Shown here: positions 1 through 6,041 of the stretch, one piece after another
How positions within the stretch are numbered: the first letter of the stretch is position 1
Layout: every line of letters begins with the position of its first letter
NCBI RefSeq assembly: GCF_014385005.1
Contig: NZ_JACRSZ010000036.1
Location: forward strand, 1 to 6,632
DNA: 6,632 nucleotides
Reading direction: 5' to 3'
Origin: Jingyaoa shaoxingensis
GTDB lineage: Bacteria > Bacillota > Clostridia > Lachnospirales > Lachnospiraceae
Notes under the pieces: model-generated
What the model was told of the DNA's origin: nothing
Databases searched by the model: none
The model's input: only the letters and a program-made list of their open reading frames with translations
Program-made: the position numbers and the translations under genes

Positions 1-119
1 GAAAATGGCTAGAGCATGACGTAATGCTGTAGAAAGAAGAATGTCGGAAAGCCGTGTGAGGGAGAACCTCATGCACGGTTTGATGAGGGGCGGATGAAAT
101 TTTCATCCGCCTACTCTAC
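1..119 (+). mobile_element. 3' end of a group II intron (domains V and VI)
   Basis: Catalytic RNA end of a self-splicing, mobile group II intron. Domain V is seen at about 49-81: the AGC triad (50-52) pairs with GTT (78-80 region) in the lower helix AAGCCGTG/CACGGTTT, a two-base bulge (TG, 72-73) follows, then an upper helix TGAGG/CCTCA capped by a purine-rich loop. Domain VI is at about 85-116: GAG/CTC at its base, a ten-pair stem GGCGGATGAA/TTCATCCGCC, and an unpaired A at 113 placed as the branch-point adenosine, six bases before the 3' AC (118-119). The intron would therefore end at 119. A small hairpin (AGCAT 13-17, ATGCT 24-28) probably belongs to the end of domain IV. The reverse transcriptase/maturase gene, if present, lies left of the window; its last codons could be in the first 30 bases but cannot be assigned. 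Subclass is not determined. Confidence 0.85.
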
Positions 120-2343: not shown

Positions 2344-3567
2344 ATGGGATTAAGTAAAAAAACAGTAGATGATATCAATGCAAAAGGAAAACGCGTGCTG
2401 GTAAGATGTGACTTCAACGTACCTTTAAAAAATGGTGAGATCACGGATGAAACACGTATCGTGGCAGCACTGCCAACCATCAACAAGCTGATCAACGACG
2501 GAGCAAAAGTAATCCTCTGCTCACATCTTGGTAAAGTAAAGAATGGACCGAACGAAGGCGAATCTCTTGCACCTGTAGCAAAGAGACTTTCTGAGAAGCT
2601 TGGTAAAGAGGTAGTGTTCGTATCTGATTACAACGTAACAGGCGAAGCAGCTACCAAGGCAGTAGAAGAGATGAAAGAAGGAGATGTTGTTCTTCTGCAG
2701 AATACACGTTTCCGTGGAGCAGAAGAGACAAAGAATGGCGAAAAATTCAGTAAAGAACTGGCTGATCTGGCAGACGCTTATGTTTGCGATGCATTCGGAT
2801 CTTCCCACAGAGCACATGCTTCTGTAGCAGGCGTTACAAAGTTCATCAAAGAAAAAGGCGGCGAAAACGCGGTTGGATATCTGATGGAAAAAGAAATTGC
2901 ATTCCTTGGCAATGCAGTAGAGAATCCGGTGAGACCTTTCGTAGCAATTCTGGGCGGTGCAAAAGTTGCTGACAAGCTGAACGTTATCTCCAACCTTCTG
3001 GAAAAATGCGATACCCTGATCATCGGTGGTGGTATGGCTTATACATTCCTGAAAGCAAAAGGATATGAAATTGGAACATCTCTTTGCGATGAGACCAAAC
3101 TGGACTACTGCAAAGAAATGATGGAAAAAGCAGAAAAGCTTGGAAAGAAACTTCTTCTGCCAATCGATACTGTATGCACAAGCGAATTCCCGAACCCAAT
3201 CGATGCTGAGATCGCTACAGAAGTAGTAGATTCTGACAAGATTCCATCTGATAAGATGGGCATGGATATCGGACCTAAGACACAGGCGCTGTATGCAGAT
3301 GCTGTTAAGACTGCTAAGACTGTTGTATGGAACGGACCTATGGGTGTATTCGAGAACCCAATTCTTGCAAAAGGTACTATCGCAGTTGCAAAAGCACTGG
3401 CTGAGACAGATGCTACAACTATCATCGGTGGTGGTGACTCTGCAGCAGCAGTAAACCAGTTAGGATTTGGTGATAAGATGAGTCATATCTCTACAGGTGG
3501 AGGCGCTTCTCTGGAATTCCTGGAAGGAAAAGAACTTCCAGGTGTTATGGCTGCAGACGACAAATAA
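2344..3567 (+). CDS. pgk: Phosphoglycerate kinase
   Basis: Cytoplasmic enzyme transferring the acyl phosphate of 1,3-bisphosphoglycerate to ADP, the first ATP-yielding step of glycolysis. The 407-aa protein has both lobes. The N-terminal substrate lobe has RCDFNVP (21-27), DETRI with R38, HLGK (61-64), TRF with R122, and [12 protein letters not shown] (149-160, R156). The C-terminal nucleotide lobe has GGAKVADK (204-211), WNGPMGVFE (329-337), GGGDSAA (362-368) and TGGGASLE (384-391). HLGKVK and DAFGSSH are mild variants of the usual HLGRPKG and DAFGTAH forms. It is a few residues longer than the common 395-400. GGAGG (2331-2335) lies eight bases before the ATG. It sits between gap and tpiA and is probably transcribed with them by readthrough of the hairpin after gap. 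Confidence 0.97.
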
Positions 3568-3571
3568 ATTA

Positions 3572-3709
3572 TAATTGTTCAGAGCCAAGCAAAATTTTAC
3601 AAGCAGGTATAAAATGCTTACATTTTTAATCTGTTTTTGAAATTTTATTTAGCGGATACGCCGCACCGACAAAATGCGTAGCATTTTGGAGGTTAGCTTT
3701 GAACAGTTA
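3572..3709. repeat. 138-bp branched inverted-repeat element between pgk and tpiA
   Basis: Nearly the whole pgk-tpiA gap can fold on itself. The ends TAATTGTTCAGAGC (3572-3585) and GCTTTGAACAGTTA (3696-3709) pair over 14 positions, two of them G-U. Inside are three hairpins. The first is long (3591-3606 with 3631-3646, 15 of 16 positions paired, then a short mismatch and AAAATG-CTTA-CATTTT at 3611-3626). The second is GCGG-ATACG-CCGC (3652-3664). The third is CAAAATGC-GTA-GCATTTTG (3670-3688), which runs into GGAGG (3688-3692). A competing helix TACGC/GCGTA (3657-3661, 3676-3680) is possible. No T-run follows on either strand, so it is not a plain terminator. It could be a small non-coding mobile repeat (MITE- or REP-like) or a cis-acting structured RNA. 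I do not recognise a named family. Confidence 0.6.
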
Positions 3710-3743
3710 CAATAAAAATAAAATCAGAATCGAGGAAAAGACG

Positions 3744-4496
3744 ATGGCAAGAAAGAAAATTATCGCTGGAAACTGGAAAATGAACATGACACCAAGTCAG
3801 GCAGTGGAATTAGTAAATACATTGAAAGATCTGGTAGTTAATCCTGATGTAGATGTTGTATACTGCGTACCTGCAATCGACATCGTACCAGTTGTAGAAG
3901 CTGTAAAAGGATCTGATGTGGCAGTTGGTGCTGAAAACTTCTATATCGAAGACAAGGGAGCTTATACAGGTGAGATCTCTGCTCCAATGCTTCTGGATGC
4001 AGGTGTAAAATATGTAATCATCGGTCATTCAGAACGTCGTGACTACTTCAAAGAAGACGATGCTCTCTTAAATAAAAAAGTTCTGAAAGCATTTGCTTCC
4101 GGTCTTACACCAATCCTTTGCTGTGGAGAATCGCTGGAGCTTCGTGAAAGAAATGCATACAAAGACTGGATCAACCTTCAGATCAAAGCTGACCTGGAAG
4201 GTGTAACAGCAGATCAGGTTAAGACTATGGTCATCGCTTACGAACCAATCTGGGCAATCGGAACAGGCAAGACTGCAACAGCAGATCAGGCTCAGGAAGT
4301 ATGTGCAATGATTCGTCATACAATTGCTGAGATGTACGATGAAGCTACAGCAGAAGCAGTACGCATCCAGTACGGCGGATCTATGAATGCAGGCAATGCA
4401 GCAGAACTTCTCTCCAAACCAGACATCGATGGTGGTCTGATCGGTGGAGCGGCTCTGAAGCCAGACTTCGGCAAGATCGTAAACTACAACAAATAA
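3744..4496 (+). CDS. tpiA: Triosephosphate isomerase
   Basis: Cytoplasmic TIM-barrel enzyme interconverting dihydroxyacetone phosphate and glyceraldehyde 3-phosphate, which feeds the gap reaction encoded upstream. All catalytic elements are visible: AGNWKMN with N10 and K12, IIGHSERR with H95, [14 protein letters not shown] with E167 and the mobile loop after it (about 168-178), and the phosphate-binding YGGSM and GLIGGAAL motifs near the C-terminus. The ATG at 3744, preceded by GAGG (3732-3735) at eight bases, gives 250 aa, the family norm. An in-frame TTG at 3699 behind a stronger GGAGG (3688-3692) would add 15 basic residues. It lies inside the closing helix of the upstream inverted-repeat element and is probably not used. 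Last gene of the cluster; a large hairpin follows 36 bases after the stop. Confidence 0.97.
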
Positions 4497-4553
4497 GCAG
4501 AATTTGTTGAGAATTGACAAATAAAACACATCAAAACACCCCTAAGCGCCTTG

Positions 4554-4578
4554 AAAATTAGTTATATCTACTAAGTGA
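4554..4578. other. Candidate attachment-site core inside the terminator loop
   Basis: AAAATTAGT (4554-4562), TATATCT (4563-4569) and ACTAAGTGA (4570-4578) form an imperfect inverted repeat, with 6 of 9 positions symmetrical, around a seven-base centre. That is the layout of a tyrosine-recombinase crossover site, and it sits about 115 bp from the integrase gene at the junction between glycolytic and accessory DNA. The second copy that would prove it is outside the window. It may be only part of the terminator loop. Confidence 0.3.
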
Positions 4579-4603
4579 AAAGCGTTTGGGGGTGTTTTAT
4601 AAT
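4575..4603 (+). promoter_or_regulatory. Possible promoter for the integrase transcript
   Basis: GTGAAA (4575-4580, four of six consensus matches), 17-base spacer, perfect TATAAT (4598-4603). A transcript would start near 4610 and carry the whole repeat-rich integrase leader. It overlaps the right arm of the tpiA terminator. Confidence 0.4.
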
Positions 4604-4865: not shown

Positions 4866-6041
4866 ATGGATCTGGCAGCATGGGAAAAAGATTATGAACG
4901 TGGAAGTGACACCAAAATAGATAAGAAGAGAACATTTGGTGAATATATGGATGAATTTGTGGATATGGAAGTAAAGTCCAATATTACGGCAAGTGGATAT
5001 CATACTTATATTCGGGCATTAAGTGCCAATTTTTATAATATGTCTATTTCAAAGTATCAGCTGCAAATGTTAAACGCAATGGAATTTCAAAAATATTATG
5101 ATGAACTTATGGAAAAGAAGGCGAGAAAGACCTGTCTTTTCCCGAGACAGTTATGCATTAGATGTTGTCAGTGGCTGGTAGATCGAAGCCTGCTAAAAGA
5201 AAATTATGCAAAACAGGCAATTTTGAAACAAGAAATAGCAGATGAATATGACAGAAAAAAAGAAGAAGATCTGAAAAAGCGAAAAAAAGTATTTACATCA
5301 GAAGATATACAAAAGTTTTATTACGCATATAAAAATGATATAGGTCAGTATCCGGTTGTAGTATTATTTTTACTGGAGACGGGCATGAGAAGTGGAGAGT
5401 TTTCAGCATTACGGAATGATAATATTGATTTGGAGAATAATAAGATTCATATTGTAGAAGCAATTGGAAGAAGATTTAAGGATAATGATAAAAACAATGA
5501 AATGGAGTATTATACAAAGGTTCCAAAAAATAAAGAAGCCCGATATATTATCATGTCGGATTTATGCAGGGAATGTGTTTTATATATGATGGAACAGACA
5601 AAATTGAAATGTAAGAATAATCCAGAGAATCTGTTGTATCCATCATTTAGAAGCGGTAAAAGAAGATCTGCGTCCTCTATGGAAACATGCTTTAAAGAAT
5701 TGTGTGACAGACTGGAAATAGAGCGGGATGTTCATGTAACCAAAACAGGACAGAAAAAAGGCTTATGCCTGCATTCTTTACGCCATACAGCAGATACGAT
5801 TGCAAATACAGCCAAAGGTGCCAATGTAGTAAATACAGCACTTATGATGGGGCACAAAGCGATTTCTGTTGAGAATCATTATACACATGCAACGGATGAT
5901 GTTATGCTGTGCATGAAGAAGAATACAACGAAAATTAAGAATATTAAAACCTATCTGATAACGGCATTATATAATGCTCCAACTACAATGAATAGCTTTT
6001 ATCAGGCAGAGGTCAATCATGATTTGTTTGGCGGTACATAA
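4866..6041 (+). CDS. Tyrosine recombinase (site-specific integrase)
   Basis: Catalyses integration and excision of a mobile element by cutting and rejoining DNA through a tyrosine-phosphate link. In the 391 residues from this ATG, a helical core-binding domain (about 24-110) is followed by the catalytic domain (about 142-350). All catalytic residues are present: R175 in TGMRSGE, K218 in the beta-hairpin, HSLRH with H303 and R306, H330 in MMGHK, and Y339 in NHYTHA. A basic C-terminal tail follows. This ATG is the first in frame but has only a weak upstream GA-rich stretch. The true start was probably 4693 before a single-base frameshift, so as it stands the arm-binding domain is cut off. The gene is visibly more A+T-rich than the glycolytic genes, in keeping with transfer. 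No excisionase gene is seen beside it. Confidence 0.88.
   Translation: MDLAAWEKDYERGSDTKIDKKRTFGEYMDEFVDMEVKSNITASGYHTYIRALSANFYNMSISKYQLQMLNAMEFQKYYDELMEKKARKTCLFPRQLCIRCCQWLVDRSLLKENYAKQAILKQEIADEYDRKKEEDLKKRKKVFTSEDIQKFYYAYKNDIGQYPVVVLFLLETGMRSGEFSALRNDNIDLENNKIHIVEAIGRRFKDNDKNNEMEYYTKVPKNKEARYIIMSDLCRECVLYMMEQTKLKCKNNPENLLYPSFRSGKRRSASSMETCFKELCDRLEIERDVHVTKTGQKKGLCLHSLRHTADTIANTAKGANVVNTALMMGHKAISVENHYTHATDDVMLCMKKNTTKIKNIKTYLITALYNAPTTMNSFYQAEVNHDLFGGT

Follow-up and report, generated by a model that had tools for sequence, protein, structure and literature searches.

The window analysed here, 6,632 nucleotides of Jingyaoa shaoxingensis (contig NZ_JACRSZ010000036.1), carries pgk and tpiA on its forward strand, separated by 176 nt from the pgk stop (3565–3567) to the tpiA ATG (3744). 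An element whose ends were set at 3571–3710 by comparison with other copies occupies 140 nt of this gap, and rather than a leader of tpiA it is one copy of a gene-less, dispersed MITE. The features of the locus are as follows.

2344–3567 (+): pgk, the upstream neighbour, aligned to relatives
3563–3570 (+): AATAAATT, the likely left target-site duplication, within which lies the pgk stop TAA (3565–3567)
3571–3710 (+): MITE copy, 140 bp, with ends ATAATTGTTCAGAGCC / GTAACTGTTCAAAGCT (consensus GTAACTGTTCAGAGCC) by copy comparison; 142.3 bits over model positions 1–142 in cmsearch with model R1, fold z −8.61
3571–3586 (+): left terminal inverted repeat, by copy comparison
3591–3646 (+): hairpin 1, 56 nt, with cap ATGCTTACAT in the window copy and ATGCTTGCAT in most copies
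3652–3664 (+): hairpin 2, 13 nt, with loop GATA in 17 of 18 aligned copies
3665–3693 (+): hairpin 3, 29 nt, with GGAGG in its 3' arm
3695–3710 (+): right terminal inverted repeat, by copy comparison
3711–3718 (+): likely right target-site duplication, AATAAAAA, decayed, by flank comparison
3744–4496 (+): tpiA, the downstream neighbour, with its own GAGG at 3732–3735, outside the element

A folded, branched inverted-repeat element between pgk and tpiA is confirmed. The 138 nt at 3572–3709 (+) that the first-pass annotation had singled out fold at −51.9 kcal/mol (z −8.61), which none of 200 shuffles equalled; the energy lies far beyond chance. The minus strand of the same 138 nt folds more weakly (−34.3 kcal/mol, z −4.65). 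The predicted structure contains the 14-position closing helix originally described (3572–3585 with 3696–3709), enclosing three hairpins, as well as the hairpin of about 56 nt (3591–3646). The GGAGG noted at the same time is present at 3688–3692, within the 3' arm of hairpin 3 rather than beside it, and across the 18 aligned copies this site reads GAGG in 16 and GGAGG in 11.

Elsewhere in the window, a group II intron domain match (RF00029, 54.6 bits) at 47–119 (+) falls just outside a PHP-domain gene at 125–931 (−). A tyrosine recombinase with a C-terminal DUF6017 match lies at 4866–6041 (+), and an inverted repeat at 4533–4598 is found behind tpiA and upstream of it; together the recombinase and the repeat possibly mark the edge of a mobile element.

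Dispersal and target sites of the element

The element has the hallmarks of a MITE: it is short and gene-less, its copies share terminal inverted repeats and are many and dispersed, and target duplications are of fixed length. Copies run from GTAACTGTTCAGAGCC to its inverse and are mostly 142 bp long, with lengths of 139–155 bp in 70 of 71 and 120 bp in the remaining one (truncated forms excluded), too short to encode more than about 50 amino acids. Among these 71 distinct copies, assessed because at least 90% of the query was covered and both ends were recognisable, 8-bp flanks agree at 8/8 positions in 34 and at 7/8 in 11 more (45/71 at 7/8 or better), as compared with 1.2% (8/8) and 5.0% (at least 7/8) of shuffled flanks. 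The target site is AT-rich, approximating AATAATTT. The flanks of the window copy (AATAAATT / AATAAAAA) match at 6/8 positions, as do 17.5% of shuffled flanks or better, and its own duplication, taken alone, proves nothing. The element would have inserted at the stop codon of pgk (AATAAATT), leaving both genes whole and stretching the pgk–tpiA gap from about 28 nt to 176 nt. The former figure is simply the gap minus the element and one duplication; in relatives, 30 of 86 such gaps are 40 nt or shorter.

Of 397 Lachnospiraceae genomes sampled, 15 contain related copies (E ≤ 1e-8; the family is that of L001, whose TpiA is the closest match; at most two candidates were scored per genome). A class-level sample yielded the element in 2 of 391 genomes, both already known as carriers, and a set of 20 genomes gave a match in one, a 31-bp half-end only. 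With at most one mismatch, the end pattern occurs 70 times in genome G045 and 52 times in G310, whereas the reversed pattern had no match in any of the 15 carriers. A covariance model (R1) built from 18 copies matches all 15 carriers, with 75 matches in G045 and 73 in G310, counts that include both-strand matches to one copy. Our data thus bear out the proposal of a small non-coding mobile element, with dispersed copies, sharp common ends and target duplications. Two dispersed G045 copies are identical, which suggests recent transposition. Furthermore, G045 and G047 contain the window element at 91% identity, whereas the neighbouring genes are only 68% and 74% (pgk) and 72% and 72% (tpiA) identical; because the element is so much better conserved than pgk, it has likely spread between species horizontally.

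Among phage records, two human faecal scaffolds carry the element, one full-length and one as a short form at a contig end; the plasmid and E. coli collections gave no element match. An IMG/VR scan for exact ends returned nine stretches, and none of the seven new ones holds the element according to the covariance model. The L082 copy comes from a 'phage' record, yet its neighbouring genes look chromosomal, while the copy in L085 sits near endolysin and lysozyme/CHAP genes. Shorter forms of 33–80 bp, down to little beyond the two ends, were also seen (L083 2988–3051, L106 1471–1550, L110 521–600, L154 508–540 and L140 561–593).

Among known repeats, ERIC and Correia (NEMIS) elements are likewise short, intergenic, gene-less and multicopy, with inverted ends and hairpins, according to the accessible part of PMC2229807, though they differ in hosts and ends and mostly have a terminal TA. 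MITEAba12, as described in the portion of PMC6382973 available, is similarly linked to an IS by its ends and has AT-rich targets, but its duplications are 9-bp and its IS is ISAba12.

The likely mover

The ends point to an IS66-type transposase, from the ISBst12 group with its single gene, as the likely mobiliser in trans; it would cut at the GTAACTGTTCAG ends. Members of this group (ISDge4 and the elements at L206 and L249) share with the MITE the GTAACT–TTCAG ends and the 8-bp target duplication; they differ in being about 1.8 kb long, in encoding one transposase gene and in having no interior match to the MITE. For ISDge4, the accessible part of PMC12898284 gives ends GTGACTACTCAGCA / GTAACTGCTCAGCA, an 8-bp repeat and observed transposition, and that of PMC11946415 gives 8-bp repeats for IS66. 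A near-parent is L206 in G034, a diverged IS66-type element of 1824 bp with ends GTATCTGTTCAGAACC and GTAACTGTTCAGAACC, the right one (GTAACTGTTCAGAACC) matching the MITE end at 15/16 positions; its flanks show no target duplication. Relatives in G336, G321 and G073 have GTAACTATTCAG ends, as does L249, a complete element of 1796 bp with an exact 8-bp duplication (CTATGGCA) and a transposase matching PF03050 and NF033517, which was the one locus returned by an IMG/VR search for IS66 relatives. Of 11 genomes matching the L249-type transposase, eight have an end with at most 3/16 mismatches in the fetched locus, and three (G060, G108 and G386) have no such end there. The element shows two marks of an ISBst12-type MITE, an IS66-type end match and an 8-bp duplication. 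Outside the pgk–tpiA gap, L046 holds another MITE (182–313, −) with a different interior, the same end type (GTATCTATTCAGTGCC / GTAACTGTTCAGTACC) and an exact 8-bp duplication, CCTACTAC.

Alternatively, the mover may be a transposase of another family with GTAAC ends and 8-bp duplications. Consistent with this, no element combining exact MITE ends with a transposase was found, and a PF03050 (IS66 transposase) search of the 15 carriers, which matched in seven (six over the cut-off), gave no match in the rich carrier G045, where no co-resident near-parent was found either. Against it, ends that adjoin IS66 genes in L206, L249, L210, L213, L214 and L274 match at 13–15 of 16 positions, and we regard a mover from another family as improbable. 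Classical IS66 elements in the carriers were rejected as parents, having different ends (GTAAGTG, GTAAACG, GTAAGTA; 8-bp duplication in 3/4). Where long end pairs occur, in G045:C15 and G310:C106, they enclose genes that look host-type by eye. The interior model R2 had no matches in 37 loci around IS66 elements.

The pgk–tpiA gap and the upkeep of the fold

A regulatory RNA ahead of tpiA, the other half of the first-pass reading, is not supported. Judged by five short core words, the ended element is absent from 86/86 assessable pgk–tpiA gaps of other genomes (95 loci searched, nine not assessable by these words), the gaps of L021 and L263 containing only the 7-mer CTGAACA; conservation solely before tpiA is contradicted both by these gaps and by the dispersal of copies. 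Over the same 95 loci the covariance model gave two weak matches, the L046 MITE at 182–313 and L044 414–533; the latter lies within the gap and shares its cap (CATGCTTGCATG) and hairpin order, though not its ends, with the element. An interior-only model added a further match within the gap, L007 4758–4860 (29.4 bits, E 0.0057). Two points favour a cis-regulatory RNA for the pgk–tpiA operon: 2/95 loci have weak relatives of the interior, with different ends, in the gap, and the fold is very strong on the coding strand and weaker on the opposite one. However, L007 and L044 are two of four matches in 771 kb, and this gap was over-sampled because the sequence searched was centred on the operon. 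Moreover, the GGAGG belongs to the element, and copies elsewhere adjoin other genes in even orientation: among 65 copies, 21 run along both neighbours, 19 against them, nine lie between convergent and two between divergent neighbours, and 14 are undecided (neighbours being long ORFs, with no gene caller). No ORF of at least 300 nt reads through a copy, a test that genes broken by copies would escape. Cis-regulation is therefore disfavoured as a general role, and we consider it highly improbable. As for the earlier interpretation overall, the mobile element is supported and the tpiA regulatory RNA is not.

Two of the carriers' pgk–tpiA gaps (L252 and L255) contain another repeat family with CGAGCC–AAGGCGA cores, in tandem units in L255. 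TpiA of L001 is 100% identical to that of the window in amino acids, with 86% identity in tpiA DNA and 78% in gap–pgk DNA.

Paired changes keep the fold. Its upkeep may lie in a role as RNA, in one as a DNA hairpin, or in copying from arm to arm. Across 48 distinct copies (alignment A4, 50 hand-picked loci), 95.7% of cells are paired and 35/48 pairs have changed on both sides, a result reached in none of 500 shuffles; slid structures, as a control, pair in 32 to 45% of cells, though the alignment itself was fitted to the model. One explanation is a MITE transcript with a selected role, shared with the Clostridiales-1 RNA discussed below. The conserved cap GCTTGC and loop GATA are consistent with such a role, CUUG being a stable RNA tetraloop, as is the excess of G-U over A-C cells in the 48 distinct copies (85 vs 37). 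There is precedent in ERIC and NEMIS, for which action on mRNA stability has been proposed (PMC2229807, in the part available), and Clostridiales-1 was itself rated a probable RNA that is not cis-regulatory in the accessible text of PMC2864571. Yet a single column pair contributes 31 of the 85 G-U cells, and young copies show parity between G-U and A-C mismatches (13 vs 12 and 15 vs 15, from 29/30 and 15/16 copies, one divergent copy per genome being skipped); the suggestion that G-U mismatches betray selection on an RNA fold gains little from these counts. Young copies also lack a strand preference, the consensus fold is nearly as good on the other strand (−60.9 vs −55.0), and orientation is unbiased, although ERIC, also a mobile repeat, acts orientation-dependently. 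On balance, a selected transcript appears somewhat doubtful.

Alternatively, the paired changes may reflect template switching, a mechanism that corrects imperfect palindromes during replication, with the fold itself unselected. The equal G-U and A-C mismatches of young copies fit this explanation, as do whole-block arm changes in L178, L188 and L082. On the other hand, the non-palindromic loop is conserved, and mutations are fewer at paired than at unpaired sites (0.52 vs 1.31 and 0.41 vs 0.73 per site), though a few hypervariable sites may drive this difference. We judge template switching to be no better placed than a selected transcript, and either is rather unlikely.

The interior, Clostridiales-1 and wider meaning

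The view that no named family has this layout was nearly right: the window copy reaches the gathering threshold of no Rfam family and is not matched by the Clostridiales-1 model (RF01699) at E ≤ 10, but related copies point to that RNA. The element and Clostridiales-1 have in common a long GCUUGC-capped hairpin followed by smaller hairpins with a UGCGUAGCA-like cap, an end-to-end closing helix, and an occurrence in Clostridiales and the gut in many copies per genome; they differ in that high-scoring Clostridiales-1 copies end in TGATAC–AGGGTCAAAAG and the MITE in GTAACTGTTCAG, and in that the window copy lacks a model match. Clostridiales-1 was listed in 2010 from Clostridiales and human gut (PMC2864571, in the part available). 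This RNA and the interior of the element are probably related, though divergent; the kinship is weakly supported, as the link runs via intermediates and bypasses the window copy.

Scans with RF01699 (gathering cut-off 48 bits), run with E-value thresholds, matched 5/10 loci (L300 85.1, L295 55.3, L303 44.6, L315 37.9 and L309 37.2 bits) and 8/20 loci (L316 44.8, L290 44.1, L312 42.0, L332 and L323 37.2, L116 35.4, L182 33.6 and L335 32.1 bits), leaving five and 12 loci without a match, including L170, the main G045 form. ISBst12-ended copies with 8/8 duplications are among the matches (L290 44.1, L315 37.9, L332 37.2 and L116 35.4 bits; E-values 1.5e-6 to 3.3e-4), and all ended copies, at 32–45 bits, fall below the cut-off of 48, outside RF01699 membership. 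L116 bridges the MITE and RF01699, since it scores 120.8 bits with the MITE model, has an exact duplication and reaches 35.4 bits with RF01699. The common caps may be convergent, though kinship is favoured by the E-values, which reach down to 1e-6 among ended copies.

The pattern ATGCTTGCATN{8,38}TTTGGCG is found in 31 of 329 genomes, with 45 occurrences in G227, as against one for the reversed control (in G093). Of 30 pattern loci inspected by eye, nine have both ISBst12-type ends (L290, L292, L294, L297, L301, L305, L310, L315 and L316); the ends of L296 are poor, the closing helices of others differ, and L299, L302 and L307 resemble chance occurrences. Copies in G227 with GTAACTATTCAG ends are 153 bp long, with duplications of 8/8 in L315, L332 and L337, 7/8 in L336 and L338, 6/8 in L335 and 3/8 in L333. 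In G206 and G175 (L320, L322–L327), 7/7 copies lie directly behind a terminator-like T run and have their own closing helix. RF01699 itself exceeds the cut-off in 5/8 genomes and 0/14 control genomes, with 24 matches in G227, 21 in G001, four in G206, three each in G310 and G120, two each in G045 and G339, and none in G175. High-scoring copies in G227 and G001 have inverted TGATAC–AGGGTCAAAAG ends, and 5/13 distinct ones show a direct repeat of at least 7 beside the ends (8.7% in shuffles), which is suggestive only as a sign of mobility. Tentatively, and at less than even odds, Clostridiales-1 as a whole may be a mobile branched fold carried from species to species in gene-less transposons, the selected cargo being the fold and not a gene, and its ends having been swapped (GTAACTGTTCAG, TGATAC–AGGGTCAAAAG, others behind terminators).

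Taken together, a MITE copy at 3571–3710, mobilisation in trans of the ISBst12 type and an interior related to Clostridiales-1 account for the locus with a probability of roughly 85%; that the conserved interior exceeds the needs of a minimal MITE counts against this explanation. MITEs as such are already known. In the literature searched, with ISfinder, supplements and subscription papers outside its scope, we found no ISBst12-ended MITE with an interior like that of an Rfam orphan, no use of CTGTTCAGAGCC as an element end and nothing pertinent on MITEs of Lachnospiraceae. The accessible parts of nine papers (PMC6382973, PMC12898284, PMC11946415, PMC3189936, PMC8024623, PMC9769881, PMC12888890, PMC2229807 and PMC2864571) contain neither an IS66-type MITE nor a statement on Clostridiales-1 mobility, the last paper included.

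A repeat family of Lachnospiraceae now has ends, a target and a likely mover, and it is linked to an Rfam family whose function is unknown; mobility would offer a first way into that family. If the kinship of the interior is true, the orphan Clostridiales-1 RNA would itself be carried by mobile DNA. Our analysis also counsels caution with gut genomes, where a fold with strong covariation can be a copy of a transposon and need not regulate the gene that follows.
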